Source of the DNA: Deltaproteobacteria bacterium
Lineage (GTDB): Bacteria > Desulfobacterota > Syntrophobacteria > Syntrophobacterales > Syntrophobacteraceae
Length of the DNA: 38,515 nt
Direction of reading: 5' to 3'
NCBI GenBank assembly: GCA_021813685.1
Contig: JAKAJS010000213.1
Location: forward strand, 1-38,515
The position numbers and the translations under genes are program-made. The notes under the pieces were generated by a model. That model was given only the letters and a program-made list of their open reading frames with translations. It ran no database searches and had not been told where the DNA came from. This document shows, piece by piece, positions 15,581 to 37,682 of the stretch (the first letter of the stretch is position 1; every line of letters begins with the position of its first letter).

Positions 15581-15728
15581 GCCGAGCAGCCATTTCCTGC
15601 GCGAAAAAATCAGTGCGGGTCGGTTTCTTTTTACCCTTTGTTTGTTAAATTCCTGTTAAGGAAAATCGCCTTTCCGACCGATGTTTTTTTCCAAAGAGAC
15701 CGTGGAGGTTGACTTACCGGGAGTTTGT

Positions 15729-16067
15729 ATGCTAAGAGAGCCGCGAACTTTTACGAATAGAAGGGAAACCGCTTTGATACGGAGTGACGAAGAATCTTCT
15801 GCCATAACGCAGGAGTTCATAGTCGCCAACAGGCTGGGAATCCACGCTCGAGTCGCGGCTCAAATTGTCAAAGTCTCCTGCCGGTTTGAATCCGAAATTT
15901 CCATCGCCAAGAGTGATGCCGCTGCCAATGCAAAGAGCATCCTGGACGTCATGGCCCTTTTATGCCCTTACGGAAGCAAAGTCTTTGTCACCGCAAAAGG
16001 CCCGGATGCCGCGCAAGCTCTCAATGCCCTTGCTGCACTTTTTCAGACCAAGTTTGGCGAGTCGTGA
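15729..16067 (+). CDS. HPr-family phosphocarrier protein
   Basis: A 112-residue protein: about 26 residues of polar extension, then a full HPr domain. ITQEFIVANRLGIHARVAA carries the phospho-acceptor His39 (His15 in standard HPr), followed by ANAKSILDVMALLCPYGSKV with Ser70 at the Ser46 position, where Gram-positive and some proteobacterial HPr proteins are phosphorylated by HPr kinase. The start at 15729 is chosen for GGGAG just upstream; ATG 15681 would add 16 residues without a good site. It receives phosphate from enzyme I encoded 84 bp downstream. Without sugar permease genes in the window, a regulatory rather than transport role is plausible. Confidence 0.9.
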   Translation: MLREPRTFTNRRETALIRSDEESSAITQEFIVANRLGIHARVAAQIVKVSCRFESEISIAKSDAAANAKSILDVMALLCPYGSKVFVTAKGPDAAQALNALAALFQTKFGES

Positions 16068-20881: not shown

Positions 20882-22006
20882 TCAGCGCCCTTCTTCCCGC
20901 ACCACATCGATGATCGTCACCTCCGGCGGGGCGAGCACGCGAACGGGGGGGCCCCAGGACCCGGAGCCTCTGCTCGTGTAGAGGACCGATCCGTTTGAGA
21001 GATGATACGGGCCGTTTTGCAAAGGGTAATACAATCGGACGAAGTAGCGGAACGGAAACAACTGTCCGTAGTGCGTATGGCCGGAGAGCTGGAGGTCGAA
21101 ACGAGCAGGATTTGTCACGGTCGGCTCCGGCCGGTGTTTGAGAAGAAGGGTGAACAGACCGTTATGTATGCCCCCGAGAATCTCTTTCTCATCCCTTTCG
21201 GGACCGGCTACCGGGTCATCGACTCCAACGACATTCAAGACGTCGCCGATTTTTTTCGCTTCTCCCCGCAGCACCGTAAATCCGAAGGATTTCTCGATTT
21301 CCATGGACTCCCGCAGCCCGGCGAAGACTTCATGGTTTCCCGTAATCGCGTATTTTCCAAACCTCGGGCGTATTTTCGAAAAAAGAGCGGCAACCGCCTC
21401 GGTTTTCTCCAGATGACCGTCGAGGAGATCTCCGGTGCTTACCAGAAGATCGGGCCTTTGCTCTTCCACTCGACGCAGGATTCTCTCCATGCGCTTTTCC
21501 CCGGCCGTGAGCCCCAGGTGCACATCGGAAATCTGCGCGATCCGCACCCGATCGATCCCCTGAGGCAGTTTGGCGGATTTCAGAACCACTCGTTCCACCC
21601 TAACAGACCTGGCCTCGAAATAACCATAAACATTTAGGAGCACCGCAGCGGCAAGTACGCAAATCGCGGTGGCGGGCCCGTTTGGCACCGGCAGGGAGAA
21701 ACCGTCGACAAAGTTTGTCAGTCGCACGATCGCCCCTGCCAAATCGGCCAGAATCGACGCCCAGAAACAGTAGAAGATGAATCCGAGCCAGCAGTAGGCG
21801 GCGAAGGCGCAGAGGCTCGCCGCCCCGGAGCTGCCTGCCCGCTCGAGCAACCGGGCGCCGACGGGGGCGAAAATCATGAGGGCGAAAAACACCACCACCG
21901 CGACCCGCACCGGCGGACTCTCCGGGAGAAGCACTCTTATCCGCGAGTAAACCAGGGCGTGCAGGAGCGAATAGATCGAAAAGAAGATTACGAGGAATCG
22001 AGTCAT
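20882..22006 (-). CDS. Membrane-anchored metallophosphoesterase
   Basis: A 374-residue protein. Four or so N-terminal membrane helices (about 3-140) precede a calcineurin-like phosphoesterase domain: IAQISDVHLGLTAG (D and H ligands), LVSTGDLLDGHLEK (bridging D), AITGNHEVFAGL (N and H) and LQLSGHTHYGQLFPF (H x H). The C terminus has YTSRGSGSWGPPVR, typical of the YaeI/YkuE group, some of which act on lipid-linked phosphates. The ATG at 22006 overlaps the stop of the upstream ATPase as TGATG, so translation is probably coupled; a GTG one codon earlier is possible. Substrate unknown. Confidence 0.9.
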   Translation of the reverse strand: MTRFLVIFFSIYSLLHALVYSRIRVLLPESPPVRVAVVVFFALMIFAPVGARLLERAGSSGAASLCAFAAYCWLGFIFYCFWASILADLAGAIVRLTNFVDGFSLPVPNGPATAICVLAAAVLLNVYGYFEARSVRVERVVLKSAKLPQGIDRVRIAQISDVHLGLTAGEKRMERILRRVEEQRPDLLVSTGDLLDGHLEKTEAVAALFSKIRPRFGKYAITGNHEVFAGLRESMEIEKSFGFTVLRGEAKKIGDVLNVVGVDDPVAGPERDEKEILGGIHNGLFTLLLKHRPEPTVTNPARFDLQLSGHTHYGQLFPFRYFVRLYYPLQNGPYHLSNGSVLYTSRGSGSWGPPVRVLAPPEVTIIDVVREEGR

Positions 22007-23856
22007 CACGTTATATCGACCGGGCCGACAACCCGGAAGATCTCCTCTATTGAGGTTGCGCCCGAACAGACTTTGAGGGCGCCGGCGATATTCAACGGCG
22101 TCATTCCCTCTTTAACCGCCTGCTCCCTTATTTTTGACAGCTCACAATCGGCCCGTATAAGGCCCCGAACCGCAGGGCTCACGATAAGCATCTCATAGAT
22201 CCCCACTCTTCCCAGATAGCCCGTTTCCCGGCACTCCAGGCAACCCACGGGCCGGTAGGCGGGGCCGGTTCGCTCGACTTTCCACGGCCGGATCAGGGAC
22301 TGCCATAACTCCTCGTCCACAGCGCCCTCCTTTCGGCAGTGGGGGCAAAGGGTGCGCGCCAGCCTCTGTGCGACAACCCCGAGCAGGGTAGCCCGCAGCA
22401 GGTAATGGGGCACCCCGATGTCGAGGAGCCTCACGATCGCCGATGGCGCATCGTTCGTATGCAGGGTGGAAAAGACCAGGTGCCCCGTCAGGGCAGCCTG
22501 CACCGCCATCTCTGCTGTCTCGAGGTCGCGGATCTCGCCCACCATGATAATATCAGGGTCCTGCCGCAGGAAAGTCCTCAGACCGGAGGCAAAATCAAGC
22601 CCGATCGCGCTGTGCACCTGCATCTGGTTGAATCTTGGCTCGACCATCTCGATAGGATCTTCGACCGTACAGACATTTATCTCCGGTTTGGCGAGATATT
22701 TCAGGGTCGAGTAGAGTGTCGTCGTCTTGCCCGAACCGGTCGGTCCTGTGACCAGGATAATGCCGTTGGGAGAACTGATCAGTTTTTTCCATTGCCGCAG
22801 CTCGATATCGGAAAAGCCCAGTTCCTCGAAGCTCCTCACGGTGACTTCGGGGTCGAAAATGCGCATGACCAGCTTTTCGCCAAAAACCGAGGGCATCGTG
22901 GAGAGGCGCAGTTCGATTTCGGCTCCCGAAATTCCCTTGGTCTTGATCCTGCCGTCCTGCGGACGCCGTTTCTCCGCAAGATCCATCCGACCAAGCACCT
23001 TGAGACGGCTGACTACCGCGCTCATGACCACCGTGGGCAGCTGGTAGACGGGGTGCAGGATTCCGTCGATGCGAAAACGCACATCGCTGTTGTCGCGACG
23101 CGGTTCCAGATGAATATCGCTTGCCCGCTGCTCGAATGCATACTGGAGCAGCCAGTCGACGATATTGACCACGTAGCGGTCGTTTGCATCCAGTTTGCCG
23201 GCCCGGCCGAGTTCGAGCATCTGCTCGAGATTCATCCCCGAGGCCTGAGGGGAGCCGTCAGCCCTTCCGAAGGCCCTCTTCACCGAATCGGTAAGCGCGT
23301 AAAATTCCAGCAGGTACCGGCTTATATCCTTCGGGTTGGAGACAACCCTGCGGACTTTTTTGTGTAACAGCCGCTCCAGCTCCTCTTCCCATTCGAAATG
23401 GAAAGGATCGGCCGTTGCGATTACAACGCGGTCTTCCATAACTTCGACCGGTAAAATTTTAAATCGCGACAGGTATGCATAGGAAACCAGGCCCGTGACC
23501 GCACGGACGTCGACCTTCAAGGGATCGATCTTGAGATACTCCAGCCCGGACTTTTTGGCCAGCCAGGCGACCAGAAACTCGAGAGTAACCGGTTCATTAG
23601 GCGGGGTAGCCCTCCGCACTCCCGCCTCCGATACAGCCACCAGGGGGTGTTCGGTAAGAGCGCTTTCGACCGATCGCGCTCTGGCGAGGATCTTTTTCGC
23701 ATCGATTTCCACGACTATACCGTCTAAGACCAAATTGCCCAGGATGCTCCGAAGGCTCAATTCGATGGGTGTCCGGACGGGATGTCCCGCTTTCGGCCCT
23801 GTTCTCACAACACCCCTCCCCGTTTGAACGAAAAATTCGGCAAAAACTTCCTCCAT
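22006..23856 (-). CDS. Type II secretion/type IV pilus-like assembly ATPase (GspE/PilB family)
   Basis: A 616-residue ATPase. The N-terminal third has an MshEN/GspE-N-like domain (about 85-200, with VARLxK-type pattern replaced by YAYLSRFKILPVEVMEDRVV). The motor part has IILVTGPTGSGKTTTLYSTL (Walker A), the Asp box INVCTVEDPIEM, IIMVGEIRDLETAEMAVQAA (Walker B) and GHLVFSTLHTNDA (His box). The tetracysteine zinc motif CPHC...CLEC is intact. It would power pilus or pseudopilus assembly at the inner membrane, but no other pilus or secretion gene is in the window, so it is an orphan or serves a distant cluster. Its 3' end overlaps the metallophosphoesterase start. Confidence 0.92.
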   Translation of the reverse strand: MEEVFAEFFVQTGRGVVRTGPKAGHPVRTPIELSLRSILGNLVLDGIVVEIDAKKILARARSVESALTEHPLVAVSEAGVRRATPPNEPVTLEFLVAWLAKKSGLEYLKIDPLKVDVRAVTGLVSYAYLSRFKILPVEVMEDRVVIATADPFHFEWEEELERLLHKKVRRVVSNPKDISRYLLEFYALTDSVKRAFGRADGSPQASGMNLEQMLELGRAGKLDANDRYVVNIVDWLLQYAFEQRASDIHLEPRRDNSDVRFRIDGILHPVYQLPTVVMSAVVSRLKVLGRMDLAEKRRPQDGRIKTKGISGAEIELRLSTMPSVFGEKLVMRIFDPEVTVRSFEELGFSDIELRQWKKLISSPNGIILVTGPTGSGKTTTLYSTLKYLAKPEINVCTVEDPIEMVEPRFNQMQVHSAIGLDFASGLRTFLRQDPDIIMVGEIRDLETAEMAVQAALTGHLVFSTLHTNDAPSAIVRLLDIGVPHYLLRATLLGVVAQRLARTLCPHCRKEGAVDEELWQSLIRPWKVERTGPAYRPVGCLECRETGYLGRVGIYEMLIVSPAVRGLIRADCELSKIREQAVKEGMTPLNIAGALKVCSGATSIEEIFRVVGPVDIT

Positions 23857-24987: not shown

Positions 24988-25248
24988 AAACTCGGATAAC
25001 CAAAGGAAGCCGTGATCGCTGATTTCCATTTTCCTCTGCGGTCTCCACGACTCCGCGGTGGATCTGTTCGCTATGCGGCGCACCCCCCCGTTGACTTCGT
25101 TATGCGGCATGCCGTACGATTCGAACCGATTCGGAATTGGATCCTTTAGATATCCCCCAACGGTCGTTTTCAGACACATGTACAAATCAATGATTACCTT
25201 TGTATTATTCATTTATATTATTCATTGAGTTTCAGGAGGGAAACGGTG

Positions 25249-25797
25249 ATGAACGCGACCGAGCAACTGCGGGCCGAGCATGAAGGCATTACGATCATGC
25301 TCGACGTATTGGAGAGGATCTGCGAAGAGATGTCTTCCGGCAAGCCTGGCAACCTTGAGCATCTGGAGCGGATCGTCGAATTTTTAAGCGTCTTTGCAGA
25401 CAAATGTCACCACGGCAAAGAGGAGGATATCCTTTTTCCCGCCCTGGAAAAGAGCGGCATCCCCAGGGAGGGCGGCCCAATCGGGGTCATGTTGAGCGAG
25501 CACGACCACGGACGGGAAGAAATTCGGCTGATGCGAAAAGCCCTTGAAGGGCTGCGGGGTGGGCAGGATTCAAGTAAAGATTTTGTAAAGGCTGCCCGCG
25601 AGTACTGTGAGCTTCTGAGAAACCATATCCTCAAAGAAAATACCATCCTCTTCGTCATGGCCGAGAAAAACCTCACTGCGGATCAGCAGGAGCGCCTTTT
25701 CGAAGATTTCGAGACGATGGAGCGCGAAAAGATCGGCGAAGGCAGGCATGAGGCATTCCATCTACTGATAGACGAGCTCAAGGGAGTCTATTTATAG
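25249..25797 (+). CDS. Hemerythrin-like HHE domain protein
   Basis: A 182-residue four-helix protein with likely di-iron ligands: LRAEHEGITIMLDVLE (His), KCHHGKEEDILFPALEK (His, His and Glu), LSEHDHGREEIRLM (His) and NHILKENTILFVMAEKNL (His and Glu). These form the usual HHE pattern for oxygen, nitric oxide or redox sensing and repair of iron centres. No signal peptide, so cytoplasmic. AGGAGGG upstream supports ATG 25249. In an anaerobe it may protect against oxygen. It precedes the EIIA fusion gene by 112 bp on the same strand. Confidence 0.87.
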   Translation: MNATEQLRAEHEGITIMLDVLERICEEMSSGKPGNLEHLERIVEFLSVFADKCHHGKEEDILFPALEKSGIPREGGPIGVMLSEHDHGREEIRLMRKALEGLRGGQDSSKDFVKAAREYCELLRNHILKENTILFVMAEKNLTADQQERLFEDFETMEREKIGEGRHEAFHLLIDELKGVYL

Positions 25798-25909: not shown

Positions 25910-26593
25910 ATGCAACTCGACCTTAAGGGCGCTGCCGGCTTCTTTTCCGTGTCACAGAAAACCATCTCCCTCTGGATAAAGACGAAAAATCTCCCCTCCT
26001 ACCAGGTAAACGGGCAATACTGGTTCAACCGGGCGGAACTCTTGGAATGGGCGACTGAGCAAAAAATCGCCCTGTCCGACCAGGCGCTCGAAGTCGAAGA
26101 GGGCCGGACTCCGGTTGGACTCGAGGAGGCGCTGCGGCTCGGGGGCATTTTTCATCAAATCGGGGGAACGGACAAAGCGTCGGTTCTGAGCGCTGTGGTC
26201 GACGTGATGAACCTTCCTCCGGCGCTTGACCGCATCACTTTCTGTCAATTACTGCTGGTGCGCGAATCTCTTGGTTCGACCGCGATAGGCGACGGCATAG
26301 CCATTCCGCATGCTCGCCACCCTATAGTGTTAAAGACGTTACACCCCACGGTGACCCTCTGCTTTCTCGAACACGCAATCGACTTCGGAGCAGACGACGG
26401 TCGGCCCGTGGACATTCTTTTCACGCTGGTGAGTCCTACGGTGCGAGCCCATCAGCACATGCTGGCCGAACTGGCCCATGCGCTAAAGGATTCCGGCTTC
26501 CGGTCCGTGCTCACGCGCAAAGCTTCCGCAGGGGAGATCCTGGAAGAGGCCAAACGGGTGAGGGAAAGAATTTCCGCCAACGCAACTCACTGA
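25910..26593 (+). CDS. Helix-turn-helix / PTS EIIA (PtsN-type) fusion protein
   Basis: A 227-residue two-domain protein. Residues 1-55 look like a MerR/excisionase-type winged helix: LKGAAGFFSVSQKTISLWIK followed by LPSYQVNGQYWFNRAELLEW. Residues 72-220 are a fructose/nitrogen-type EIIA domain with REALG-like RESLGSTAIGDGIAIPHARH; His134 in PHAR is the phospho-acceptor. The fusion suggests a DNA-binding or protein-binding regulator controlled by PTS phosphorylation. Its stop is 25 bp before the first Ehr-complex gene on the same strand, so it is probably in the operon. HPr and enzyme I are encoded in this window. DNA binding is inferred from the helix pattern. Confidence 0.83.
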   Translation: MQLDLKGAAGFFSVSQKTISLWIKTKNLPSYQVNGQYWFNRAELLEWATEQKIALSDQALEVEEGRTPVGLEEALRLGGIFHQIGGTDKASVLSAVVDVMNLPPALDRITFCQLLLVRESLGSTAIGDGIAIPHARHPIVLKTLHPTVTLCFLEHAIDFGADDGRPVDILFTLVSPTVRAHQHMLAELAHALKDSGFRSVLTRKASAGEILEEAKRVRERISANATH

Positions 26594-26618: not shown

Positions 26619-28628
26619 ATGTTCCTCCTCCTCGTGGCAATAGGACTTCTTGTTTTCTTCGGGTTCACGGCGCTTCTTTCGGGAAGAAACGGCCAGGCGG
26701 CCAATCTTATCGGATCCTGTGGCGCTCTTCTCGGATGTCTTCTCGGTCTGATCCAACCCGTCCGCATTCTGTACACCGGCGGCGTGGAGCAATTCCAATG
26801 CGCGTGGAACGTGCCCTACGGTTCTTTTTTTGTACGACTCGATGGGCTTTCCGCGCTGTTCCTGATTCCGATTTTTATCCTGTGCGGGGTGGCCGGGCTC
26901 TATGGCCGCGACTACATGAAGGGCTACTGCGGGCGCAAAAATCTCGGAGCCTACTGGTTTTTTTTCAACGGGCTTGCGGCAAGCATGGCTCTTGTGGCCA
27001 TCGCGGCAAACGGGCTGCTCTTTCTGATGTCCTGGGAAGTGATGGCCCTCTCGTCTTTTTTCCTCGTGACCTTTGAAAACGAAAAGGAAAGCGTTGAGCG
27101 CGCCGGGTGGACCTATCTGGCCGCAACCCACATCGGAACGGCGTTTCTTCTGGTTTTATTCCTGATGTTGGGACGCCAGGCCGGGGGCGGCTCCTTGGAT
27201 TTCACCTCCTTTCTGGCTCTTCGCGGGCAGATGGGCGCTCCAGCCGATGTCGTTTTCCTTCTCGCCATCGTTGGTTTTGGCGCCAAGGCCGGGTTGGTTC
27301 CCTTTCACATCTGGCTTCCCGAAGCGCATCCGGCGGCCCCGAGCCCCGTTTCCGCCGTTATGTCCGGGGTAATGATCAAAACCGGGATATACGGCATTTT
27401 GCGGATACTGACTTTTCTCGGGCCTCCCCATTTGTGGTGGGGATGGCTGCTTGTTGGTCTGGGTCTCGTATCGGGGATTTACGGCGTCGTCATGGCTCTG
27501 GCGCAGCACGATCTAAAGCGGCTTCTGGCCTTTCATAGCGTTGAAAATATAGGAATTATCGCTCTCGGGATGGGACTGGGCGTCCTGGGCCTTGCCTGGC
27601 GCATGCCTCTTCTCGCAACACTCGGGTTTGCCGGCGCATTGCTGCATGTGGTCAATCACGCGCTATTTAAAGGGCTTCTCTTCATGGGGGCCGGGTCGGT
27701 CCAGCACGCAACCGGAACCCGGGAAATCGATCTACTGGGCGGCCTCATGAAGCGAATGCCGTGGACCGGCGCGACATTTCTTGTCGGAGCGATTGCGATT
27801 TGCGGCATTCCGCCCCTTAACGGCTTTGTCAGTGAATTTCTCATCTACCTGGGGGGCTTTCACGCCGTTGGCGCGGCAAACACTGCCGCAGCCGGGGCAT
27901 TGCTCCTGACGGGTCTTGCTCTTATCGGAGGCCTTGCCGCCGCCTGTTTTACGAAAGCTTTCGGTGTCGTCTTCCTGGGGGAGCCCAGAAGCAGCCATAC
28001 CGACGGCGCTCACGAAGCCGGATGGTCCATGCGCCTTTCGATGTTATTGCCGGCCGCAGGGTGTATTGCAATCGGGCTATTCGCACCGTGGGCTGCAACG
28101 TTTACCGGCCGCGCCGTAGAGTTAGTCTCCGGCCTTTCATATCTCGACGTCATGAAAAATCTCGACCCGTCCGTGAGCGCTCTTTCGACGGCCGCAATCG
28201 TCTTCGCTGTTCTGGCTTTGGGGGTGATCCTCCTCGCCCTGGTTCGCCGCAGGGTTCTTTCGGGCCGAAGCTCCTCGACCGAAGGCACCTGGGACTGCGG
28301 CTACAGCCGACCGTCGGCAACGATGCAGTACACGGCTTCCTCTTTTGCCCAGCCGCTCACCGCGATGTTTGAACCGGTTGTGCGCACGAAAACCCTCGCT
28401 TCCGGCGCCAGCCTCCTCACCGACGCCCCCCCGCAGTTTTTCCCCGGCAGCAGTTCCTTCGAATCGCACGCCGAGGATTTTTTCCTCAAAAGCATTTACG
28501 GACCGATTTTTGTCGCGATCGGAAAAGTTGCGCGAAAGCTCCGTTTTCTGCAGGCGGGCCGGGTGCAATTCTACATCCTCTACATTGCCCTTACCATTTT
28601 TACTCTTCTCATCTGGTGTTTGAGGTAG
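26619..28628 (+). CDS. Ehr/hydrogenase-4-type antiporter-like subunit (HyfB/NuoL family)
   Basis: A 669-residue polytopic inner-membrane protein, the larger proton-pump-like subunit of the complex. Conserved charged residues of this family are present: Glu140 in LMSWEVMALSSF, Lys223 in GFGAKAGLVPFHIW, and His230/His237 in the following HIWLPEAHPAAPSPVS. LKRLLAFHSVENIGII and LFKGLLFMGAGS are also typical of HyfB. It presumably couples electron transfer in the hydrophilic arm to H+ or Na+ movement. It is the first structural gene of a six-gene operon and ends 4 bp before the next start. Confidence 0.93.
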   Translation: MFLLLVAIGLLVFFGFTALLSGRNGQAANLIGSCGALLGCLLGLIQPVRILYTGGVEQFQCAWNVPYGSFFVRLDGLSALFLIPIFILCGVAGLYGRDYMKGYCGRKNLGAYWFFFNGLAASMALVAIAANGLLFLMSWEVMALSSFFLVTFENEKESVERAGWTYLAATHIGTAFLLVLFLMLGRQAGGGSLDFTSFLALRGQMGAPADVVFLLAIVGFGAKAGLVPFHIWLPEAHPAAPSPVSAVMSGVMIKTGIYGILRILTFLGPPHLWWGWLLVGLGLVSGIYGVVMALAQHDLKRLLAFHSVENIGIIALGMGLGVLGLAWRMPLLATLGFAGALLHVVNHALFKGLLFMGAGSVQHATGTREIDLLGGLMKRMPWTGATFLVGAIAICGIPPLNGFVSEFLIYLGGFHAVGAANTAAAGALLLTGLALIGGLAAACFTKAFGVVFLGEPRSSHTDGAHEAGWSMRLSMLLPAAGCIAIGLFAPWAATFTGRAVELVSGLSYLDVMKNLDPSVSALSTAAIVFAVLALGVILLALVRRRVLSGRSSSTEGTWDCGYSRPSATMQYTASSFAQPLTAMFEPVVRTKTLASGASLLTDAPPQFFPGSSSFESHAEDFFLKSIYGPIFVAIGKVARKLRFLQAGRVQFYILYIALTIFTLLIWCLR

Positions 28629-28632
28629 CAAC

Positions 28633-29574
28633 ATGAATTACGGCTCACTGGCGCTTCCCCTGCTCGCCCTGGCGCTCGCCCCCCTTCTTCCGGGCATAAT
28701 CAACCGCACGAAGGCCATTATCGCGGGCCGCGACGGGCAGCCGCTTCTCCAGCTCTACTACGATCTGGCAAAGCTTGCGAGAAAGCAGGCGGTCTACAGC
28801 CGCACGACCGGCTGGGTATTTCGGGCAGGCCCCGTGGTTGGTCTGGTCTCGGCCGTGGCCGTTCTGGCACTTCTTCCGCTGGGAGGCGCGCGCGCGCCTG
28901 TCGGCTTTTCCGGAGATTTTATCGCTCTGGCATATCTTTTCGGGCTCATGCGGTTTTTTACGGTGATCGCGGCCCTCGATACCGGTTCGGCCTTCGAGGG
29001 AATGGGGGCGAGCCGTGAGGTGCAGTTTTCAGCTCTTGCCGAACCGGTGCTCTTTATGGCCCTGGCGGCCATTTGGCTTGCCGGGCGAAGCTCGGTTCCC
29101 GCCGTGGGGGGTGGTTCCCTTTCTCTTTCCACGATCTATTCCGGCTTGTCGGTTTCCACCTGGATGCACTCCGGACCGGCCCTCCTGATGATCGCAGGGG
29201 CGCTCTGGGTTGTGTTTCTCGCGGAAAACTCACGGATTCCCTTCGATGATCCGAACACCCACCTCGAGCTGACCATGATCCACGAAGTCATGGTGCTCGA
29301 TCACAGCGGGCCGGATTTCGCGATGATTCTCTACGGGGCATCCCTCAAGATGTGGTCCCTGGGGGCGCTGCTCGCAGGGCTTCTGGTCCCGGTAAGGACC
29401 GGCAACTTTTTTCTCGATGCCGGGGCGTGCGTGCTTGGCCTCTTTGTTCTTGCAGTTTTTACCGGCATAGTCGAGTCGGTCATGGCCCGGCTGAGGCTTC
29501 GCCGCGTCCCCCAGTTGCTCGTAAGCGCTGGCTTTCTCTCCACGTTCGCTCTGGCGCTTATCCTTTGGAGATGA
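28633..29574 (+). CDS. Ehr/hydrogenase-4-type membrane anchor subunit (HyfC/NuoH family)
   Basis: A 313-residue membrane protein of the NuoH/HyfC family, which links the hydrophilic arm to the membrane pump. Typical parts are PLLQLYYDLAKLARKQAVYS, the loop SAFEGMGASREVQFSALAEP and the charged segment LAENSRIPFDDPNTHLELTM followed by IHEVMVLDHSGPD. In this family these glutamates and aspartates form the funnel joining the active-site chamber to the proton path. The ATG at 28633 is 4 bp past the previous stop and it ends 1 bp before the next start. Confidence 0.93.
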   Translation: MNYGSLALPLLALALAPLLPGIINRTKAIIAGRDGQPLLQLYYDLAKLARKQAVYSRTTGWVFRAGPVVGLVSAVAVLALLPLGGARAPVGFSGDFIALAYLFGLMRFFTVIAALDTGSAFEGMGASREVQFSALAEPVLFMALAAIWLAGRSSVPAVGGGSLSLSTIYSGLSVSTWMHSGPALLMIAGALWVVFLAENSRIPFDDPNTHLELTMIHEVMVLDHSGPDFAMILYGASLKMWSLGALLAGLLVPVRTGNFFLDAGACVLGLFVLAVFTGIVESVMARLRLRRVPQLLVSAGFLSTFALALILWR

Positions 29575-29575
29575 C

Positions 29576-30220
29576 ATGAGCCTATTTACCGACGCCGTAA
29601 TCGCGGTCCTGATCCTCACCAATCTCAGGCTGCTCGCATCGAGCCGGGTCTCGGCCTGCATTTATGCCGTGGCCTGTCAGGGCGTTTTGCTCGGGATACT
29701 GCCCCTGCTCGTAGGACCCGAACACCTGACGGTGCGCGCCTGCATGCTTTCCACCGCAACGGTTCTGCTCAAAGGGTTTTTCTTCCCCTGGCTGCTGCTG
29801 CGCGCTCTTCGCTCCGCAAACGCCAACCGGGAAATCGAACCCCTCGTCAGCTATACGCTCTCTCTGCTGATCGCAGCACTCCTGCTTGCGGCCGCAATGT
29901 GGCTGGGCAAACAACTGCCTTTGCCCGTGCCGGCCCGCTCGCCCATGGTTTTACCGCTTGCGATGTTTACGATCATGGCGGGACTTTTTGCAATTGTCAG
30001 CCGTCGCAGCGCCCTCACCCAGGTGCTCGGGTACCTGGTGATGGAAAACGGCATCTATGCCTTTGGCCTCGCCTTCGCTTTGAGCCAGCCGATGCTGGTC
30101 GAACTGGGGATCCTGCTCGATGCGTTCATGGCCGTTTTCGTAATGGGCATCACGATCTTTCATATCAGCCGGGAATTCGATCACATGGACACCGACCGGC
30201 TGAGCGCCTTAAGAGATTGA
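29576..30220 (+). CDS. Ehr/hydrogenase-4-type membrane subunit (HyfE family)
   Basis: A 214-residue membrane protein with about six helices. The HyfE/NuoK-like end has VLGYLVMENGIYAFGLAFAL and LVELGILLDAFMAVFVMGIT, with the family's conserved Glu residues in helices, and closes with HISREFDHMDTDRLSALRD, the usual HyfE tail. It sits between the HyfC- and HyfF-like genes as in hyf operons. The start ATG is one base after the previous stop. Confidence 0.92.
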   Translation: MSLFTDAVIAVLILTNLRLLASSRVSACIYAVACQGVLLGILPLLVGPEHLTVRACMLSTATVLLKGFFFPWLLLRALRSANANREIEPLVSYTLSLLIAALLLAAAMWLGKQLPLPVPARSPMVLPLAMFTIMAGLFAIVSRRSALTQVLGYLVMENGIYAFGLAFALSQPMLVELGILLDAFMAVFVMGITIFHISREFDHMDTDRLSALRD

Positions 30221-30225
30221 TAATC

Positions 30226-31713
30226 ATGATACTTCTCCTGTTCCTCGTGCCGATCGTTGCGGGCGCTGCCTCCTATCTTGTCCGCTCAAACCGATTCCGC
30301 CGGTTGCTCCTGCTTGCGGGCGCCGTTTTCCATTCGGCGCTCACCGGTTTCGCCTGGGTGGAAAGGCCTCTTCCCGCGTTCGGCGGCTGGCTGCGTTTAG
30401 ACGATCTGGGACTGCTTTTTCTCTCCATCGTGAGTTTTTTGTTCCTCGCCGCTTCCTTCTATTCGGTGGGATATTTTCAACGGGAGGACTGGGGGAAACG
30501 CCAGGATTTCGAGGAGGGCTTCCTTTTCACCAATGCGCGTGAGGCGACCTTCACCTGCTGCCTGCTGCTCTTTCTGGCCACGATGAGCCTCGTGTGCCTG
30601 AGTCAGGATTTCGGGCTCCTGTGGGTGGCCGTCGAGGCGACAACCCTCACCAGCGCGCCCCTTATCTTTTTTCACCGCCATCGCAGGTCGCTGGAGGCAA
30701 CCTGGAAATACCTCGTGATCTGCTCGGTCGGTATTGCTCTCGCACTTCTCGGAAATTTCTGCCTCGCCGTCGCGGCAACGCTTGGCCCCCATGCGCACGT
30801 TCCCGTACTTCTTGACAGCCTGATCTCTCATGCGTCTCTTCTCCACCCCCTGTGGCTCAAAGTCGCCTTCCTGTTCCTGGTTGTAGGATACGGCACCAAG
30901 CTGGGGCTTGCTCCCATGCATACCTGGCTTCCCGATGCGCACAGCGAAGCGCCCTCGATGGTATCCGCGCTCCTTTCCGGGGCCTTGCTAAACTGCGCCT
31001 TCCTGGGCGTTCTTCGCATCCAGCAGGTGTGCTTTGCGGCCGGGGAGGGTCCATTCGGCCAACATATCCTTCTCGCTCTCGGGCTTCTCTCCATGACCGT
31101 CGCGGCGGTCTTTATCGTTGGCCAGAGCGACTTCAAACGCATGCTCGCCTATTCGAGCATCGAACACATGGGGATTCTCTCCCTGGCCGTGGGGCTAGGC
31201 GGCGCGGCCTATTTCGGCGCTCTTTTCCATGCGCTCAACCATTCCCTCACCAAAGGGATGCTCTTCCTGGTAGCAGGAAACATCCTCACCGCCTACAAAA
31301 CCAAGTCGGCAGGCGAGGTGCGCGGGGCCGCAAAACTTCTGCCGGTATCCGGGGTGCTCTGGGTTGCGGGGTTTCTCTCCATAACCGGCTCCCCCCCGTT
31401 CGGCCCCTTTCTAAGCGAGCTGATCATTCTCAGATCCGCCCTGGACCAGGGCAGGTTCGTCGTTGCCGGAACATTCCTCCTCTTGCTGTGCGTCATCTTT
31501 ATCGGCATGGCGAGCGTTGTTTTAAAGATGTACCAGGGAACGCCCGTAGCGCAGCCGGCGGGAGATTCGCCCGCACCCGCACGCGGAGGCGAATCGGCGC
31601 TGGCCGTCGTTCCTCCCCTTGTGCTCGGTGTGGCGGTGCTGGTTCTGGGGGTGTATCTTCCCCCGGCTCTAAAGGGTCTCCTCGCGCACGCCGCAAGGGC
31701 GATAGGCGGGTAA
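30226..31713 (+). CDS. Ehr/hydrogenase-4-type antiporter-like subunit (HyfF/NuoN family)
   Basis: A 495-residue second antiporter-like membrane subunit. Typical segments are LLWVAVEATTLTSAPLIFFH with the helix glutamate, GYGTKLGLAPMHTWLPDAHS with the conserved Lys and His residues, EAPSMVSALLSGALLNCAFL and KRMLAYSSIEHMGILSLAVG. ATG 30226 is five bases after the HyfE-like stop; a longer frame beginning within that upstream gene is not homologous there and is rejected. It ends in a short AATGGGTG repeat before the large-subunit gene. Confidence 0.92.
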   Translation: MILLLFLVPIVAGAASYLVRSNRFRRLLLLAGAVFHSALTGFAWVERPLPAFGGWLRLDDLGLLFLSIVSFLFLAASFYSVGYFQREDWGKRQDFEEGFLFTNAREATFTCCLLLFLATMSLVCLSQDFGLLWVAVEATTLTSAPLIFFHRHRRSLEATWKYLVICSVGIALALLGNFCLAVAATLGPHAHVPVLLDSLISHASLLHPLWLKVAFLFLVVGYGTKLGLAPMHTWLPDAHSEAPSMVSALLSGALLNCAFLGVLRIQQVCFAAGEGPFGQHILLALGLLSMTVAAVFIVGQSDFKRMLAYSSIEHMGILSLAVGLGGAAYFGALFHALNHSLTKGMLFLVAGNILTAYKTKSAGEVRGAAKLLPVSGVLWVAGFLSITGSPPFGPFLSELIILRSALDQGRFVVAGTFLLLLCVIFIGMASVVLKMYQGTPVAQPAGDSPAPARGGESALAVVPPLVLGVAVLVLGVYLPPALKGLLAHAARAIGG

Positions 31714-31760: not shown

Positions 31761-33275
31761 GTGTACGTGTCGGTCTCGATTTCCAACATATTTTCCATGA
31801 GCAACGGCCAGGCTGCGGATGTGCGGGATGCCACCGCAATGAGCCGCGGCGATTTTTGTGAATCCGTCATCGAGGCGGTGCGGCAGGGACTGAGAATTTC
31901 GGCTCTTTTCGGCCAAAAAGTCGAGGGCAACCGGGTACGCCTCTTTGCCGTTCTCTCTCATGATGCAGAGTCCTCCCTGCTGCTCTTCCACACCGATATC
32001 GACGACGGCCGGTATGAGTCTCTCACCCCGCGGTGCACCCAGGCCCACTGGTTCGAACGCGAGATTTTCGAGCAGTTGGCCGTAATGCCCTGCGGCCATC
32101 CATGGCTAAAACCGATTAGATTTTCTGCCTCTGCGAGGGGGACTGCGGAAGCTCCCGAGATCGGCGTCGCCGATTTTTTCCGGGTCGAGGGCGAGGAAGT
32201 CCACGAGGTGGCGGTCGGCCCGGTTCACGCCGGGATCATCGAACCCGGTCACTTTCGTTTCCAGTGCCACGGGGAAAATGTCTTTCATCTCGAAATATCT
32301 CTGGGCTACCAGCACCGGGGAATCGAACGGAGGCTGGCCGGAGGCCCCGACCGGCGCACGGTCCATTATATGGAAACCCTTGCGGGCGATACCACAATAG
32401 GACACAGCCTGGCTTACAGCGAACTGGTCGAGGCCCTTGGCGGCACTCCCGCCCCGGCCAAGGCGCAGGTGCTCCGCGGAATAGCCCTCGAACTCGAACG
32501 CATCGCCAACCACACGGGAGATCTCGGAGCGCTTGCAGGAGACGTCGGATACCTCCCGACGCTTTCCTATTGCGGGCGGATACGCGGAGACGCGCTCAAC
32601 ATGACGGCTCTTATCTGCGGAAACCGCTTCGGCCGCGGCCTTGTAAGGCCTGGCGGGACAGGGTTCGACGTGGAGGGGCAAAGAAGGGATGAACTGCTGC
32701 GGCGCCTCGATACCCTCGAAGAGGATCTTCGGGTCGCGGTAGATCTTCTGTGGAATTCTTCCTCCGTTATGGCCCGGTTCGAAGGCACGGGAGCGATCTC
32801 CAAAGAAGAGTGTGCGGCCATGGGACTGGTCGGGCCCGCTACGCGCGCCTGCGGAATCGAACGCGATATCCGGTGCGACATGCCCCACGGGATCTTCCAG
32901 CTCGGTCAGATCCCCGTATCCACGTGCCGCACCGGAGATGTTTTTGCCCGTGCCTACGTGAGATGGCTCGAAATCCAGAGATCCATCACATTCGTCCGCG
33001 AACAGTTGAAGGGTCTCCCCGGCGGGGCAGAACGTATCTCTGTGCGGCCTCTTGAACCCGACCGTATCGCAGTCTCGCTTGTCGAGGGCTGGCGGGGCGA
33101 GATTTGCCACGTGGCCCTTACGGGTCCGGAGGGAAAATTCACCGCCTACAAGGTGGTCGATCCGTCGTTTCACAACTGGTTTGGACTGGCCCGGGCGTTA
33201 AGAGGCCAGCAAATATCAGATTTCCCGCTCTGCAACAAGAGCTTCAATCTTTCCTACTGCGGCCACGACCTATGA
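31761..33275 (+). CDS. Ehr-type large subunit (NuoC-NuoD/HyfG-like) lacking NiFe ligands
   Basis: A 504-residue fusion of a NuoC-like domain (about 30-115) and a NuoD/HyfG-like large subunit (about 150-504). VGPVHAGIIEPGHFRFQCHG and LEISLGYQHRGIERRLAG match HyfG closely. Where HyfG has the N-terminal CGIC nickel ligands, this protein reads AGDT (208-211) in LAGDTTIGHSLAY; where HyfG has DPCYSC, this has NLSYCG (496-501) before a C terminus GHDL. Thus none of the four ligand cysteines is in place, and no cleavable C-terminal tail is visible. It is not a hydrogenase by sequence; it fits the Ehr class, whose substrate is unknown. The GTG at 31761 has GGAG four bases upstream; GTG 31767 and ATG 31797 are alternatives. 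Confidence 0.88.
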   Translation: MYVSVSISNIFSMSNGQAADVRDATAMSRGDFCESVIEAVRQGLRISALFGQKVEGNRVRLFAVLSHDAESSLLLFHTDIDDGRYESLTPRCTQAHWFEREIFEQLAVMPCGHPWLKPIRFSASARGTAEAPEIGVADFFRVEGEEVHEVAVGPVHAGIIEPGHFRFQCHGENVFHLEISLGYQHRGIERRLAGGPDRRTVHYMETLAGDTTIGHSLAYSELVEALGGTPAPAKAQVLRGIALELERIANHTGDLGALAGDVGYLPTLSYCGRIRGDALNMTALICGNRFGRGLVRPGGTGFDVEGQRRDELLRRLDTLEEDLRVAVDLLWNSSSVMARFEGTGAISKEECAAMGLVGPATRACGIERDIRCDMPHGIFQLGQIPVSTCRTGDVFARAYVRWLEIQRSITFVREQLKGLPGGAERISVRPLEPDRIAVSLVEGWRGEICHVALTGPEGKFTAYKVVDPSFHNWFGLARALRGQQISDFPLCNKSFNLSYCGHDL

Positions 33276-33304: not shown

Positions 33305-34066
33305 ATGCTCGACATTCTCTGGGCAAGACTGCAACAGAAACATCGAACCATGAAATTCCCGGACGGCCCCGCGCCCGCCCTGCCCGACCGCTACCAGGGG
33401 CGGCCGGTCCTTTTCCCGGAGAGGTGCGGCCCCGAGTGCGACCGGTGCGTCGAAATCTGCCCAACCGGGGCACTGCTCCGCGCCCCTTTACGGATCGATC
33501 TCGGCAAATGCCTTTTTTGCTCCAGTTGCGCCGCCGCCTGCCCGGCTCAAGCCATACGGTTTGAAAACGACTACCGAATGGCCGAATCCGTACGGGAGAA
33601 CCTGGTCGTCGGGTCGCCCACGCGAGGAGCGGGGCCTGGCATCGACGCGAGAGCGCACCGTTTTTTCCGAAAATCTCTCAAGCTGCGCCAGGTGAGCGCC
33701 GGAGGGTGCAATGCGTGCGAGGCCGATACCAACGTGCTCGGTACGGTAGGCTGGGACCTGGGTCGCTTCGGCATTCAGTTTGTCGCCTCGCCCAGACATG
33801 CGGACGGACTTCTTATAACCGGCCCGGTTCCGGAAAACATGCGCCTTGCCCTGCTAAAGACTTACCGGGCCATTCCCGAGCCCAAGCTGGTCATCCTGGT
33901 CGGCGCGTGCGCCATATCCGGAGGACCCTTCATCGATCATGAAGAAGTCCATAACGGCGCAGGAACCCTGGTGCCCGTAGACCTGCACATCCCTGGCTGC
34001 CCTCCGAGCCCCCTTGCCATTCTCGACGGCCTCCTGCGTCTCACGGGACGAATTACAGGAGAATGA
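33305..34066 (+). CDS. Ehr-type small subunit with fused two-cluster ferredoxin domain (HyfI/NuoB-like)
   Basis: A 253-residue iron-sulfur protein. The N-terminal part carries two 4Fe-4S motifs: Cys41, 45, 48 and 52 (C-x3-C-x2-C-x3-CP, the first gap one longer than canonical) and Cys69, 72, 75 and 79 (canonical). The C-terminal NuoB/HyfI part keeps all four ligands of the proximal (N2-type) cluster: Cys135 and Cys138 in GGCNACEA, Cys202 in GACAISGG and Cys232 in IPGCPPSP. Fusion with the ferredoxin replaces the separate HyfA/HyfH-type electron carriers. The electron route therefore looks intact up to the large subunit. It follows the large subunit by 29 bp, with an AAGGTG upstream of ATG 33305. 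Confidence 0.9.
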   Translation: MLDILWARLQQKHRTMKFPDGPAPALPDRYQGRPVLFPERCGPECDRCVEICPTGALLRAPLRIDLGKCLFCSSCAAACPAQAIRFENDYRMAESVRENLVVGSPTRGAGPGIDARAHRFFRKSLKLRQVSAGGCNACEADTNVLGTVGWDLGRFGIQFVASPRHADGLLITGPVPENMRLALLKTYRAIPEPKLVILVGACAISGGPFIDHEEVHNGAGTLVPVDLHIPGCPPSPLAILDGLLRLTGRITGE

Positions 34067-34130: not shown

Positions 34131-34397
34131 ATGGCGGTTGGCTGGTCCCGTGACGAGGCGGTTAACGATCAGATAGATGCGACGGTAAAATCCGCTGTCC
34201 AGCTGGCAAAAAGCAGGCTGCCCGAGGGGGAGAGTCTCTCCCACTGTGAGGAGTGCGGTGCCGAGATCCCTGAAGCGCGCAGGAAAGCGATCCCCGGTGT
34301 TCGCAGTTGCGTGGGATGTCAAGCGGAACGCGAAAAAAGGCTGAAAGGAGTCGAATTCTATAATCGCCGTGGCAGTAAGGACAGTCAGCTGAAGTAA
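34131..34397 (+). CDS. TraR/DksA-type C4 zinc-finger protein
   Basis: An 88-residue protein with the DksA/TraR zinc finger CEECGAEIPEARRKAIPGVR followed by SCVGCQAE (C-x2-C-x17-C-x2-C). The short N-terminal helix DEAVNDQIDATVKSAVQLAK is like TraR rather than the long coiled coil of DksA. TraR proteins bind RNA polymerase and adjust transcription, partly mimicking ppGpp with DksA. GGAAAGGA lies upstream of ATG 34131. It follows the Ehr small subunit by 64 bp on the same strand and may be co-transcribed. Confidence 0.88.
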   Translation: MAVGWSRDEAVNDQIDATVKSAVQLAKSRLPEGESLSHCEECGAEIPEARRKAIPGVRSCVGCQAEREKRLKGVEFYNRRGSKDSQLK

Positions 34398-34664: not shown

Positions 34665-37600
34665 ATGGGTTTTACGGCAGATCAGCTTGCTCAATGGAAA
34701 ACCGCGACTTCTCCCCATATCTTTCTCAACCCCGAAGAAGCCGGGCGTGAAAAAATAAAGAAGGCCTACCGGCATCACGTCCTCATGGTCCCCGCCCTGC
34801 GCGCCTTCGGGTTTACATTGATAGCGCTCTTCGTTCTTTTCCACGACCTCTATCTTACCCCGACGCCCTCGGCCCGGGGATATTTTTTCCGCCTGCTCGC
34901 CCTCTACTGGATCTATATAGCGGTTTCCTGGTCTATCCTTTTTCTCTTTTTCAATAAGTGTTCAAAATTCCACCTCGGCCGCTTCTTTCTGCTCTTCGAC
35001 ATTCTCCCCATTCTCATGGCCATCTATTATTCCGGCGGAGAAAAGAGCTGGCTCTTTTTCCTCCTAATGATGCGGACCGCGGATCAGACCGCCACCACCA
35101 AGCGCAACACGACTCTTTTCGCCATTGCCACCACTGTCGGCTATGTCCTGCTGCTGATCTATCTTGCGGCTACCGAGGGACACGGCTTATCGCTTCTCAC
35201 AGGGCTTTCCAAGGCCGGATTCATACTCGGCATGAATCTCTACCTGGTCCTGGTGGCCAATGCGTCAGACAAACTGCGCAGCACCATGGTTTCGGCGATC
35301 CGGGTAGCCAGAGATCTCATCCGGCAGCTCAAAAGCTCCCGGGATGCCCTGCAGGAGAGTGAAACGCGCTATCGGCTCCTTACCGAAAGCGCCATGGATG
35401 TCATTTCCACACTCGATATGGATTTGCATGTTACCTATGTCAGCCCGTCGTTTACCCGGCTAACGGGCTTTACCCCCGAAGAGGCCACGACCAAAACGGC
35501 ACAGCAGGTGTGTACTCCCGAGTCATTTCCTGCCGCGGCGCAGGTGTTCAAACAGGAAGTGGCTCTGGAAAGCGCCGGGAGCGGCGACCGCGAACATTCC
35601 CGCCTGATAGAATTTGCATTGGTCCGAAAGGATGGGGGCAAGGTCGAGGTGGAAGGAAACTTCAGGTTCCTTCGCGATTCGGCCGGGAAGGCGATCGGCA
35701 TCCTCGCCATCGCCCGGGACATCACCCAGCGCAGACAGGCCGAAAAAGCGCTTCTGGAATCGGAAAACAAATTCAAAAACTTTGCCGAACAGTCGCTTGT
35801 AGGCCTTTTCATTTTGCAGGACGGAGTCTTCAAATATGTAAACGCCAGGTTTGCCGAAATGTTCGGCTATACGGTCGAGGAATGTCTGAGCGGAATTCCT
35901 TTCCAGAAATTTATCCATGAACCGGACGTACCCGCGGCCGAAAGGCAGGTCAGGGAACGAATATCCGGGAAAACACGCTACGTTCAGCACGGCTTTCGGG
36001 GGGTTAAAAAGGACGGAACGCTATTCGATGTCGAAGTCTACGGTTCGGCCATCATGTATCAAGGAAATATGGCAGCCACGGGAACGATCCTGGATGTCAC
36101 CGAACGAAAGCAGGCCGAGACCGCAATCCGGGAGAGCGAGGAGCGTTTTTCCAAATTCTTTCACGCCAGTCCCGCCGGTACCAGCATCGTCCGCCTGAGC
36201 GACGGCCTGTTTTTGGATGTGAACGATTCCTTCCTGAACATTTTGGGCTACACTCGCGAGGAAGTGATCGGACAAAATTCGCTGAAGCTGCAAATATGGG
36301 CCGACGCAGACGGCCGAGCCAAGATGATCAGAAAACTTGAGGAGAACGGCACGCTACGTGATTTCGAAGCCGGATTCCGGCGAAAATCCGGTGAGATACG
36401 GGATATCAGCTTCACCGCCGAGATTATCGAGTCGGCCGGGCAGCAATACATTCTCGGACTTATCTATGACATTACCGAGCGCAAGAGAAACGAGAGGGAA
36501 AGAAAGAGACTTCAGGAACAGCTCTTTCAGGCCCAGAAGATGGAGTCGATAGGACGACTCGCAGGGGGTGTGGCTCACGACTTCAACAACATGCTCGGCG
36601 TCATCATAGGGCGGGCGGAATTGGGCTTGAAAATGGTTTCCACCGATAAACTCCGGCGCAATATCGAGGAGATCCTCAATGCCGGCCTGCGCTCGGCGGA
36701 TCTCACGCGGCAATTGCTCGCCTTTGCACGCAAACAGACCGCCGTTCCCAAAATACTGGATCTAAACGACACGATCTCGGGCATGCTCAAGATGCTGCGA
36801 CGGCTCATCGGAGAGGATATCGACCTGTTGTTCGGCCCGGAACTGGATCTGTGGAAGGTCAAAATCGATCCCTCTCAGGTGGACCAGATCCTGGTAAATC
36901 TCGCCGTCAATGCCCGGGATGCGATTTCCGGCGTTGGCGCCATTACCATCAGGACCGAAAACGTTACCGTCGGACAATCCGTTCTTTCCGAAAAGCCCGA
37001 ATTCATCCCCGGAGAGTATGTCCTGTTGACCGTAAACGATACCGGCGAAGGCATGAGCAGGGAAATTTGCAAAAAAGTCTTCGAGCCCTTTTTCACGACC
37101 AAGGAAGTGGGGAAGGGAACCGGCCTGGGACTTTCGACAGTCTACGGCATAGTAAAACAAAACGGCGGCTTTATTTATGTCGACAGCTTACCGGGGAAAG
37201 GAACCACGGTTACGATCCACCTCCCGCGACTGCGCGATGAAATCGCTCCCGTCTGCTCCGAGGACATTTCGCCTTTGCTCCGGTCAGGTTCGGAGACTGT
37301 CCTGCTGGTGGAAGACGATCCCGGGATTCTCGATCTCAGCAAAATGATTCTCGAAGAACAGGGCTACAAGGTGATTGCCACGGAGGCGCCGCTCCATGCC
37401 CTGGAACTCTTTGAAAAGCACAAGACCCGAATTCGACTGCTGATCACAGACGTGATCATGCCCAAGATGCACGGCAGAGATCTGGCAAAGCGGCTGCTCG
37501 CCTCCCACCCGCAGCTCAAGTGCCTGTATATGTCCGGTTATACGGCAGATGTGATCGCCCATCAGGGATTTCTTGACACCGGAGTGAACTTCATCCAGAA

Positions 37601-37682
37601 ACCCTTCACGAATGAAGCTTTTGCGCAGAAAGTAAGACAGGTGCTCGACGACGCGAATGAGTGTTACGCAGATAGACTCTAA
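34665..37682 (+). CDS. Membrane hybrid sensor histidine kinase with three PAS domains and a receiver
   Basis: A 1005-residue hybrid kinase. Membrane segments occupy about 45-200 (five or six helices). Three PAS domains follow at about 235-355, 360-480 and 485-605, each starting with E(S/N)(E)xRF/KF-type PAS entry and ending in the ITQRRQAEKAL, VTERKQAETAI or ITERKRNERER linker. The HisKA phospho-acceptor lies in RLAGGVAHDFNNMLGVIIGR. The ATPase domain has VNLAVNARDAI (N box), NDTGEGM (G1) and GKGTGLGLSTVYGIVKQNGG. A C-terminal receiver has VLLVEDDPG, the phospho-Asp in LLITDVIMPKM, and FIQKPF. The signal is unknown. ATG 34665 follows a G-rich stretch. Confidence 0.93.
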   Translation: MGFTADQLAQWKTATSPHIFLNPEEAGREKIKKAYRHHVLMVPALRAFGFTLIALFVLFHDLYLTPTPSARGYFFRLLALYWIYIAVSWSILFLFFNKCSKFHLGRFFLLFDILPILMAIYYSGGEKSWLFFLLMMRTADQTATTKRNTTLFAIATTVGYVLLLIYLAATEGHGLSLLTGLSKAGFILGMNLYLVLVANASDKLRSTMVSAIRVARDLIRQLKSSRDALQESETRYRLLTESAMDVISTLDMDLHVTYVSPSFTRLTGFTPEEATTKTAQQVCTPESFPAAAQVFKQEVALESAGSGDREHSRLIEFALVRKDGGKVEVEGNFRFLRDSAGKAIGILAIARDITQRRQAEKALLESENKFKNFAEQSLVGLFILQDGVFKYVNARFAEMFGYTVEECLSGIPFQKFIHEPDVPAAERQVRERISGKTRYVQHGFRGVKKDGTLFDVEVYGSAIMYQGNMAATGTILDVTERKQAETAIRESEERFSKFFHASPAGTSIVRLSDGLFLDVNDSFLNILGYTREEVIGQNSLKLQIWADADGRAKMIRKLEENGTLRDFEAGFRRKSGEIRDISFTAEIIESAGQQYILGLIYDITERKRNERERKRLQEQLFQAQKMESIGRLAGGVAHDFNNMLGVIIGRAELGLKMVSTDKLRRNIEEILNAGLRSADLTRQLLAFARKQTAVPKILDLNDTISGMLKMLRRLIGEDIDLLFGPELDLWKVKIDPSQVDQILVNLAVNARDAISGVGAITIRTENVTVGQSVLSEKPEFIPGEYVLLTVNDTGEGMSREICKKVFEPFFTTKEVGKGTGLGLSTVYGIVKQNGGFIYVDSLPGKGTTVTIHLPRLRDEIAPVCSEDISPLLRSGSETVLLVEDDPGILDLSKMILEEQGYKVIATEAPLHALELFEKHKTRIRLLITDVIMPKMHGRDLAKRLLASHPQLKCLYMSGYTADVIAHQGFLDTGVNFIQKPFTNEAFAQKVRQVLDDANECYADRL

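Follow-up and report, generated by a model that had tools for sequence, protein, structure and literature searches.

The analysed DNA, a stretch of 38,515 nucleotides from a member of the Syntrophobacteraceae (Deltaproteobacteria bacterium, contig JAKAJS010000213.1) that is referred to here as the window, harbours a tight run of plus-strand genes extending from a gene for an HTH-EIIA protein through to ehrS, in which ehrL is the sixth gene (Table 1). HyfB-, HyfC-, HyfE- and HyfF-like membrane subunits, the large subunit EhrL and the small subunit EhrS are all specified by this single operon and make up the full six-subunit set; the HyfB-like subunit scored 608.6 bits against the NCBIfam model of hydrogenase 4 subunit B, under its cut-off of 667, and the HyfF-like subunit we take, by elimination, to be EhrD. 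EhrS of the window contains eight ferredoxin cysteines and four proximal-cluster cysteines (C135, C138, C202 and C232). A Pfam scan of 34 window ORFs detected no gene for formate dehydrogenase, an NADH module or hydrogenase maturation, and the NADH input module NuoEFG was absent from the operon, both in these ORFs and in the close loci. The surroundings include genes for a hemerythrin-domain protein upstream of the operon (25225-25797, +), a small DksA/TraR-type zinc-finger protein directly 3' of ehrS (34131-34397, +) and a large hybrid sensor kinase with several PAS domains further downstream (34665-37682, +), as well as a RACo-type gene (reductive activator of corrinoid proteins) at 12566-14707 (+).

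Table 1. Genes and motifs of the Ehr operon in the window
Feature	Position	Strand	Basis and remarks
HTH-EIIA regulator-like protein: N-terminal HTH_17 and PTS EIIA	25910..26593	+	Pfam PF12728, PF00359
HyfB-like antiporter-type membrane subunit (EhrA in Geobacter naming)	26619..28628	+	NCBIfam; key Glu/Lys kept
HyfC/NuoH-like membrane anchor (EhrB)	28633..29574	+	PF00146; loop HLELTMIHE present
HyfE-like membrane subunit (EhrC)	29576..30220	+	PF00420; NCBIfam hydrogenase 4 membrane subunit, sub-threshold
HyfF-like antiporter-type membrane subunit	30226..31713	+	PF00361 on 30202-31713; start ATG 30226; key Glu/Lys kept
EhrL, hydrogenase/NuoCD-like large subunit	31761..33275	+	likely start GTG 31767; PF00346, PF00329
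AGDT codons (residues 208-211), hydrogenase counterpart CGIC	32382..32393	+	G209 and D210 each in 145/145 EhrL
QQISDFPLCNKSFNLSYCGHDL codons (residues 483-504), C-terminal end of EhrL	33207..33272	+	alignment; no extension beyond
NLSYCG codons within the QQISDFPLCNKSFNLSYCGHDL stretch, replacing DPCYSC	33246-33263	+	alignment
EhrS, 2[4Fe-4S] ferredoxin domain fused to NuoB/hydrogenase-small-subunit-like domain	33305..34066	+	Pfam Fer4, Oxidored_q6

The ehrL ORF is stop-free, encodes 504 amino acids and matches the Pfam families of the 49-kDa and 30-kDa subunits of complex I, its nearest solved relative by sequence being HycE of formate hydrogenlyase (7z0s_E, phmmer E 6e-45). As three congeneric relatives (L010-L012) carry a methionine at window residue 3, translation probably starts at the GTG, giving a protein of 502 amino acids. 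The initial annotation had claimed that all four NiFe cysteines were lost from this product, with CGIC replaced by AGDT and DPCYSC by NLSYCG (residues 496-501), and that nearby GHS-x-AY and SD-x-PL matches anchor the alignment. A comparison of the kind it proposed was performed, by phmmer against HycE of 7z0s and by MAFFT with HyfG, HycE and NuoCD of E. coli, and the losses stand: A208 and T211 fall on the first CxxC and S498 and G501 on the second, the four ligand positions being A, T, S and G with flanks that are gap-free against HyfG and HycE, and the anchors hold with GHSLAY aligned to AHSTAY and SDFPL to SDAPL. The CxxC...DPCxxC signature of group 4 [NiFe] hydrogenases is absent from EhrL both in the window and in the family alignment, and there is no C-terminal maturation extension past the second motif, as the window protein, like 144 of the 145 EhrL sequences (the remaining row is gapped), terminates with L504, where HycE and HyfG continue further. 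Nor does the loss reflect an artefact of the genome as a whole: elsewhere the same genome encodes a group 4 large subunit (L005) in which both CGIC and DPCISC are present, and it also has at least two NuoD-like genes (L003 and L004). In six pairwise comparisons among four congeneric genomes, made for each gene, dN/dS was 0.10-0.13 for ehrL and 0.10-0.14 for ehrS, values that are rough at a dS of 0.8-1.4; ehrL is under purifying selection, and the loss of its cysteines can accordingly be ascribed neither to chance nor to decay.

Scanning of GTDB species genomes with an EhrL alignment returned at least 528 stretches encoding relatives, the best 80 of which (55-80% identity) were kept and derive from Thermodesulfobacteriota, Planctomycetota, Verrucomicrobiota, Kiritimatiellota, Omnitrophota, Acidobacteriota, Elusimicrobiota, Spirochaetota, Fibrobacterota, Zixibacteria and others. 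The earlier statement that Ehr complexes in deltaproteobacteria lack the cysteines is consequently right as to the cysteines and too narrow as to the organisms, because close relatives span many phyla. Close EhrL matches (E <= 1e-190) occurred in 9 of 39 genomes of the window's order and in 5 of 11 of its genus, and matches at E <= 1e-60 in 85 of 395 sampled genomes of its phylum, which makes Ehr complexes widespread. Distant loci (18 + 14, 31-58% identity) were added, as were plasmid relatives from Variovorax, Rhizobium, Azospirillum, Rhodococcus and Allomeiothermus; one of 31 matches was left without a locus. The partial L013 was omitted from a set of 87 sequences, as was L011, whose record is that of L044, and in the larger set of 145 EhrL sequences, which includes partial rows such as L140, proteins of more than 560 amino acids were trimmed to the C-terminal 515 residues. 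L179 has two Ehr copies, of which the better one was used; the large subunit of L185 was partly read, and the small subunit of L230, being of another type, was uncounted. Among the close loci, tblastn with the window proteins located B in 61/62, C in 64/65, E in 68/69, F in 70/71 and S in 76/77, and the operon order is kept across phyla.

In a quick tree of 57 proteins, rooted on NuoD and with SH-aLRT values only and no bootstrap, 49 EhrL proteins form one clade (SH-aLRT 98), which is joined next by L018 (99) and then by HycE/HyfG (93); Allomeiothermus, Variovorax, Rhodococcus and L018 have long branches. Two Geobacteraceae loci (L109 and L116) lie inside the EhrL clade and we infer that they are EhrL, standing in for that of Geobacter sulfurreducens. 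Ehr (energy-converting or Ech hydrogenase-related) complexes have reportedly been described in this species, in accounts said to be those of Coppi in 2005 and Marreiros in 2013. The Ehr complexes of G. sulfurreducens have the same subunit set, a cysteine-less large subunit and a small subunit in which ferredoxin and NuoB domains are fused. Large subunits without NiFe motifs are also treated in the excerpts available to us for Sulfobacillus (PMC4378227), Nitrospira (PMC10284858, PMC12342949), candidate phyla (PMC7304191), Riflemargulisbacteria and their kin (PMC6349859) and ammonia-oxidising archaea (PMC10432482). The assignment to the Ehr type made in the initial annotation is borne out by the clade shared with Geobacteraceae Ehr, by the operon set and by these descriptions (excerpts of PMC4378227, PMC10284858 and PMC12342949), and it is close to certain that the window gene is ehrL and belongs, as an ordinary member, to the Ehr family already published; nothing was found that sets it apart from known Ehr complexes. 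That the reaction is unknown, as likewise claimed, agrees with the same three accounts, which together with PMC10432482 state in the portions seen that the function or benefit of Ehr is unknown. Adjoining EhrL on the tree, L018:979-2574 (genome G026) encodes a large subunit which has neither the NiFe cysteines (FSGTSAFAH ... FGLSNAESDR) nor the EhrL motif, and genome G030 has a match of similar length.

The pocket that replaces the NiFe site appears to be neither of the hydrogenase nor of the complex I nor of the MBS type, since its ligand, quinone-headgroup and canopy residues all differ from these, and its residues are kept by selection. At ligand columns 211, 498 and 501 cysteine was found in none of 145 EhrL sequences, and at column 208 in four, where it stands alone. 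The case named as refuting the loss, in which cysteines elsewhere rebuild a nickel site, was looked into with C169, C271, C286, C491 and C500, which are invariant or near-invariant in the 87 closest sequences; in the 145 they occur 132, 119, 119, 138 and 127 times, respectively, with single losses falling in different sequences, and as no cysteine is invariant none of them makes up a set restoring such a site. C500 lies one column off a former ligand and is serine in 18/145 relatives. What is fixed instead is a motif comprising E161, G209-D210 and DFPxxNKSxxxSYxGxDL, with which the protein terminates: E161, G209, D210, H251, D254, D261, R445, N492, K493, S494, S498, Y499, G501 and D503 are present in 145/145 and N250 in 143/145, the fixed residues being mostly polar and 73 positions in all reaching at least 98%. 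Five plasmid relatives were then added to the 145 sequences and the enlarged set was contrasted with eight non-Ehr proteins; residues that reach at least 97% in EhrL and occur in none of these eight included A157, I160, D210, D254, D467, N492, K493, G501 and L504, with D210 in 149/150 (Glu in Allomeiothermus) and D254 in 147/150.

With formate hydrogenlyase and hydrogenase 4 (HycE, HyfG) EhrL shares its fold, a fused 30-kDa domain and the membrane subunits, but it differs from them in lacking the NiFe cysteines and the C-terminal extension and in having Asn at the canopy Asp. The latter residue (HycE D529), termed strictly conserved in the excerpt of PMC9474812, corresponds to N496, which is Asn in 141/145. 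The proton path of the hydrogenase given in the same excerpt (HycE E193, R478, H284, E437 and R395) corresponds, in our own residue mapping, to E161, R445, H251, E404 and R339 of EhrL, each found in 145/145. Fold and the pocket residue D261 are common to EhrL and complex I NuoCD/NuoD, whereas Ehr has no quinone His/Tyr and an operon without NADH module; H38 and Y87, described as the quinone-headgroup residues of Thermus thermophilus Nqo4 in the part of PMC7684303 at hand, align without gaps with I160 and G209, and the headgroup His and Tyr are absent. An AlphaFold model of EhrL built from 97 sequences had a mean pLDDT of 92.5 and a pTM of 0.93, with low confidence at residues 155-157 and 500-504 (the last part of the pocket motif), and Foldseek placed this predicted structure first with HycE (7z0s_E, TM 0.88 over the query) and then with E. 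coli and Aquifex complex I; an earlier model from 9 sequences was poor (pLDDT 64.5) and was discarded.

All four proximal-cluster cysteines were present in 108 of 112 readable EhrS proteins; L046 lacks one and three lack all four, namely L065:11546-12292 (Planctomycetales), L175:1811-2341 and L182:10269-11141 (Allomeiothermus silvanus plasmid pMESIL01). In each of these three the third proximal ligand is Glu or Asp, the tree requires three changes in separate lineages, and electron transfer via the proximal cluster cannot be the function of these members because the four cysteines are gone. L175 lies in a genome of the window's phylum that is listed as 100% complete and has one EhrL match, and the EhrS of L065 keeps its ferredoxin cysteines. 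In 30 Planctomycetota matches, which overlap the earlier loci, 28 keep all four cysteines, L186 (identical to L065) is without all and L210 without one. The membrane-arm Glu and Lys examined are kept in the window, in L175 and L182 (B, C and F) and in L065 (B and C), from which the HyfF-like subunit was not recovered. The HyfF-like protein of a Rhodococcus sp. WAY2 plasmid (L183:7208-8725) is without the WVAVEAT Glu and without the GTKLG Lys; its EhrS retains the four proximal cysteines despite these losses. The ferredoxin domain itself is missing from 16/112 EhrS, all of them in distant loci or plasmid relatives, and where present it has C52, C69, C72 and C75 in 96/96; its first cysteine, C41, is kept in 74/112. 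The claim of the initial annotation that the Fe-S clusters imply a redox-driven ion pump is thus plausible for the window operon and does not extend to a rule of the family, given the 3/112 and 16/112.

Of 61 close loci in which the DNA extends far enough, 56 have a gene for an HTH-EIIA protein upstream (tblastn; close loci from the best 80 of at least 528 relatives), and a match was obtained in 8 of 32 distant loci, two on the opposite strand, counted irrespective of flank length. The EIIA residues His134, His181, Arg118 and Glu119 are each present in 58/58 and, as this includes both histidines, the protein is probably phosphorylatable. The window also encodes the phosphorelay that might act on it, with genes for PTS HPr (15681-16067, +) and enzyme I (16152-17966, +) some 8-10 kb ahead of the HTH-EIIA gene, and the HTH-EIIA protein probably ties Ehr expression or activity to the PTS phosphorelay. 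Clustering of neighbours with a crude ORF caller revealed, beyond the operon and HTH-EIIA, no gene family recurring in more than 5 close loci, and on this ground no electron-donor gene is linked; the larger leftover clusters were antisense shadows of operon genes, and one 259-aa family was found in 5 loci at varied places and another in 3. A literature search for EIIA linked with Ehr retrieved nothing relevant. To the known Ehr family our analysis adds the motif in the pocket, the link to EIIA and the members that have no proximal cluster; although undescribed in the portions of the Ehr literature searched, the original Geobacter accounts aside, these are not claimed as unpublished.

Genome-level markers were assessed in 50 Ehr genomes, corresponding to 50 of the best 80 loci chosen by title outside Deltaproteobacteria, and in 14 control genomes; the former are mostly MAGs of untold completeness, for which reason single gene absences mean little. 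HypD, for NiFe maturation, was present in 34/50 (4/14 controls) and was not found in 16/50. A TIGR01591-like molybdoenzyme (E <= 0.001) was present in 29/50, above the formate dehydrogenase cut-off in 8/50, with no match at E <= 0.001 in 21/50. POR_N, of the ferredoxin oxidoreductase family, was detected in 48/50 at E <= 1e-10, a weak indication as 10/14 controls also match. UbiE matched at E <= 1e-40 in 34/50 and in 10/14 controls including Thermotoga maritima; 16/50 had no match at this threshold, two of which were also without UbiA. UbiA (PF01040) itself was uninformative as a quinone marker, being found in 48/50 but also in 14/14 controls, and UbiE is the better marker of the two. These frequencies speak against NiFe maturation and formate dehydrogenase as general requirements and, less strongly, against quinone as one.

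Ehr is a six-subunit membrane complex (HyfB, HyfC, HyfE, HyfF, EhrL and EhrS) built like formate hydrogenlyase and the complex I core, and we favour, at a probability of roughly 0.5, the reading that it is a relative of complex I which is fed by ferredoxin, pumps ions and has an as yet unnamed molecule as acceptor. Reduced ferredoxin or another low-potential carrier would reduce the two [4Fe-4S] clusters in EhrS, from which electrons would travel via the proximal cluster to the EhrL/EhrS pocket; there a small acceptor would be reduced with protons delivered along the kept R445-H251-E404-R339 path and E161. From the pocket the change would reach the antiporter-like subunits by way of the NuoH-like EhrB, and these subunits would then move protons or sodium. 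This proposal is favoured by the anchored alignment, by the family signature of EhrL, by the operon order, by the ferredoxin and proximal cysteines of the window EhrS and the proximal cysteines in 108/112, by the kept membrane-arm Glu and Lys, by proton-path residues that are found in 145/145, by a dN/dS of about 0.1 and, weakly, by POR_N in 48/50 Ehr genomes. It is also favoured by the abundance of Ehr subunits in G. sulfurreducens, higher on formate than under hydrogen-containing conditions (PMC7894505), and by an Ehr expression in Nitrospira moscoviensis that H2 did not raise, according to a passage in PMC12342949. A redox-coupled charge translocation by Ehr is suspected in the excerpt of PMC6349859. 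It is weakened by the losses in L065, L175 and L182, by the 16/112 without ferredoxin domain, by C41 at 74/112, by the want of a linked donor gene and by the Asn at the canopy Asp.

The EhrS members without proximal cluster are the finding that counts most against an entirely respiratory reading, and they lend some credit to a less probable alternative in which Ehr is an Mrp-like ion transporter whose hydrogenase-like arm gates or senses, redox input being optional, perhaps signalling the state of ferredoxin, and HTH-EIIA giving the link to the PTS. Such a transporter would accommodate the loss of the proximal cysteines in three separate lineages that kept EhrL and the examined membrane-arm residues, the 16/112 EhrS without ferredoxin domain and an EIIA companion with its His in 58/58, and a role of ehrABCDLS in pH homeostasis is considered possible in the part of PMC6688271 available. 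However, 108/112 EhrS keep four proximal cysteines that would be needless in a non-redox machine, the members without the cluster may be secondary, and the Rhodococcus plasmid displays the opposite pattern, its HyfF-like subunit having lost the ion-path Glu and first Lys and its EhrS having kept the proximal cysteines. The bolder form of this idea, that Ehr complexes are PTS-linked ion transporters which are not primarily respiratory, with the NiFe pocket rebuilt as a fixed polar motif and the arm gating, is doubtful; if true, at least three lineages have dispensed with the proximal iron-sulfur cluster and the ion-moving arm stayed.

It is unlikely that Ehr is a ferredoxin:menaquinone oxidoreductase with an unusual quinone pocket. 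The fold of EhrL is near those of NuoCD and HycE, D261, common to NuoD proteins, is present in 145/145 and UbiE in 34/50 Ehr genomes, but I160 and G209 occupy the H38/Y87 columns of Nqo4 (PMC7684303, as excerpted), the 16/50 genomes without a UbiE match include two also without UbiA, although such MAGs may be incomplete, and Ehr genomes without an identified full quinone pathway are reported in the excerpt of PMC6349859. Still less probable is a complex of formate dehydrogenase and Ehr for a simplified formate respiration, which is put forward for Riflemargulisbacteria and Saganbacteria in the same excerpt. The available part of PMC7894505 reports all Ehr subunits of G. sulfurreducens to be more abundant on formate as compared to hydrogen-containing conditions and suggests a link to formate dehydrogenase that helps H2 production from formate; the missing NiFe ligands disfavour Ehr making H2 in this way. 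With 21/50 Ehr genomes lacking a TIGR01591 match, just 8/50 over the cut-off and no formate dehydrogenase gene among the window ORFs scanned, such a complex is untenable as a general rule.

A sulfane sulfur reductase resembling MBS of Pyrococcus is very improbable: the pockets of both are modified, without H38/Y87 and without the pocket residues of hydrogenase and complex I, but, according to the same excerpt of PMC7684303, MbsL has two of the four cysteines and the proximal cluster of MbsJ is a three-Cys cluster, features that our alignments revealed to be absent from the window Ehr, where EhrL has none of the four and EhrS the hydrogenase-type CxxC and two further cysteines. That Ehr is a decayed, non-functional hydrogenase, as stated for Geobacter KN400 in the excerpt of PMC13194489, is scarcely credible in spite of the lost catalytic cysteines, in view of a dN/dS of about 0.1, the 73 positions conserved at 98% or more in 145 EhrL and an operon order conserved across phyla.

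The pocket motif of Ehr offers a target for structure determination and mutagenesis and a simple criterion for annotating Ehr as opposed to hydrogenase. Members without the proximal cluster provide a natural test of whether ions can be moved by a complex I-type machine when no electrons are transferred, a question that matters to the debate on coupling in complex I. On NC_014213.1, the record of L182, two places match the EhrS of this locus (21491-22294 and 247135-248007), the first with 100% identity over 268 of 290 residues.
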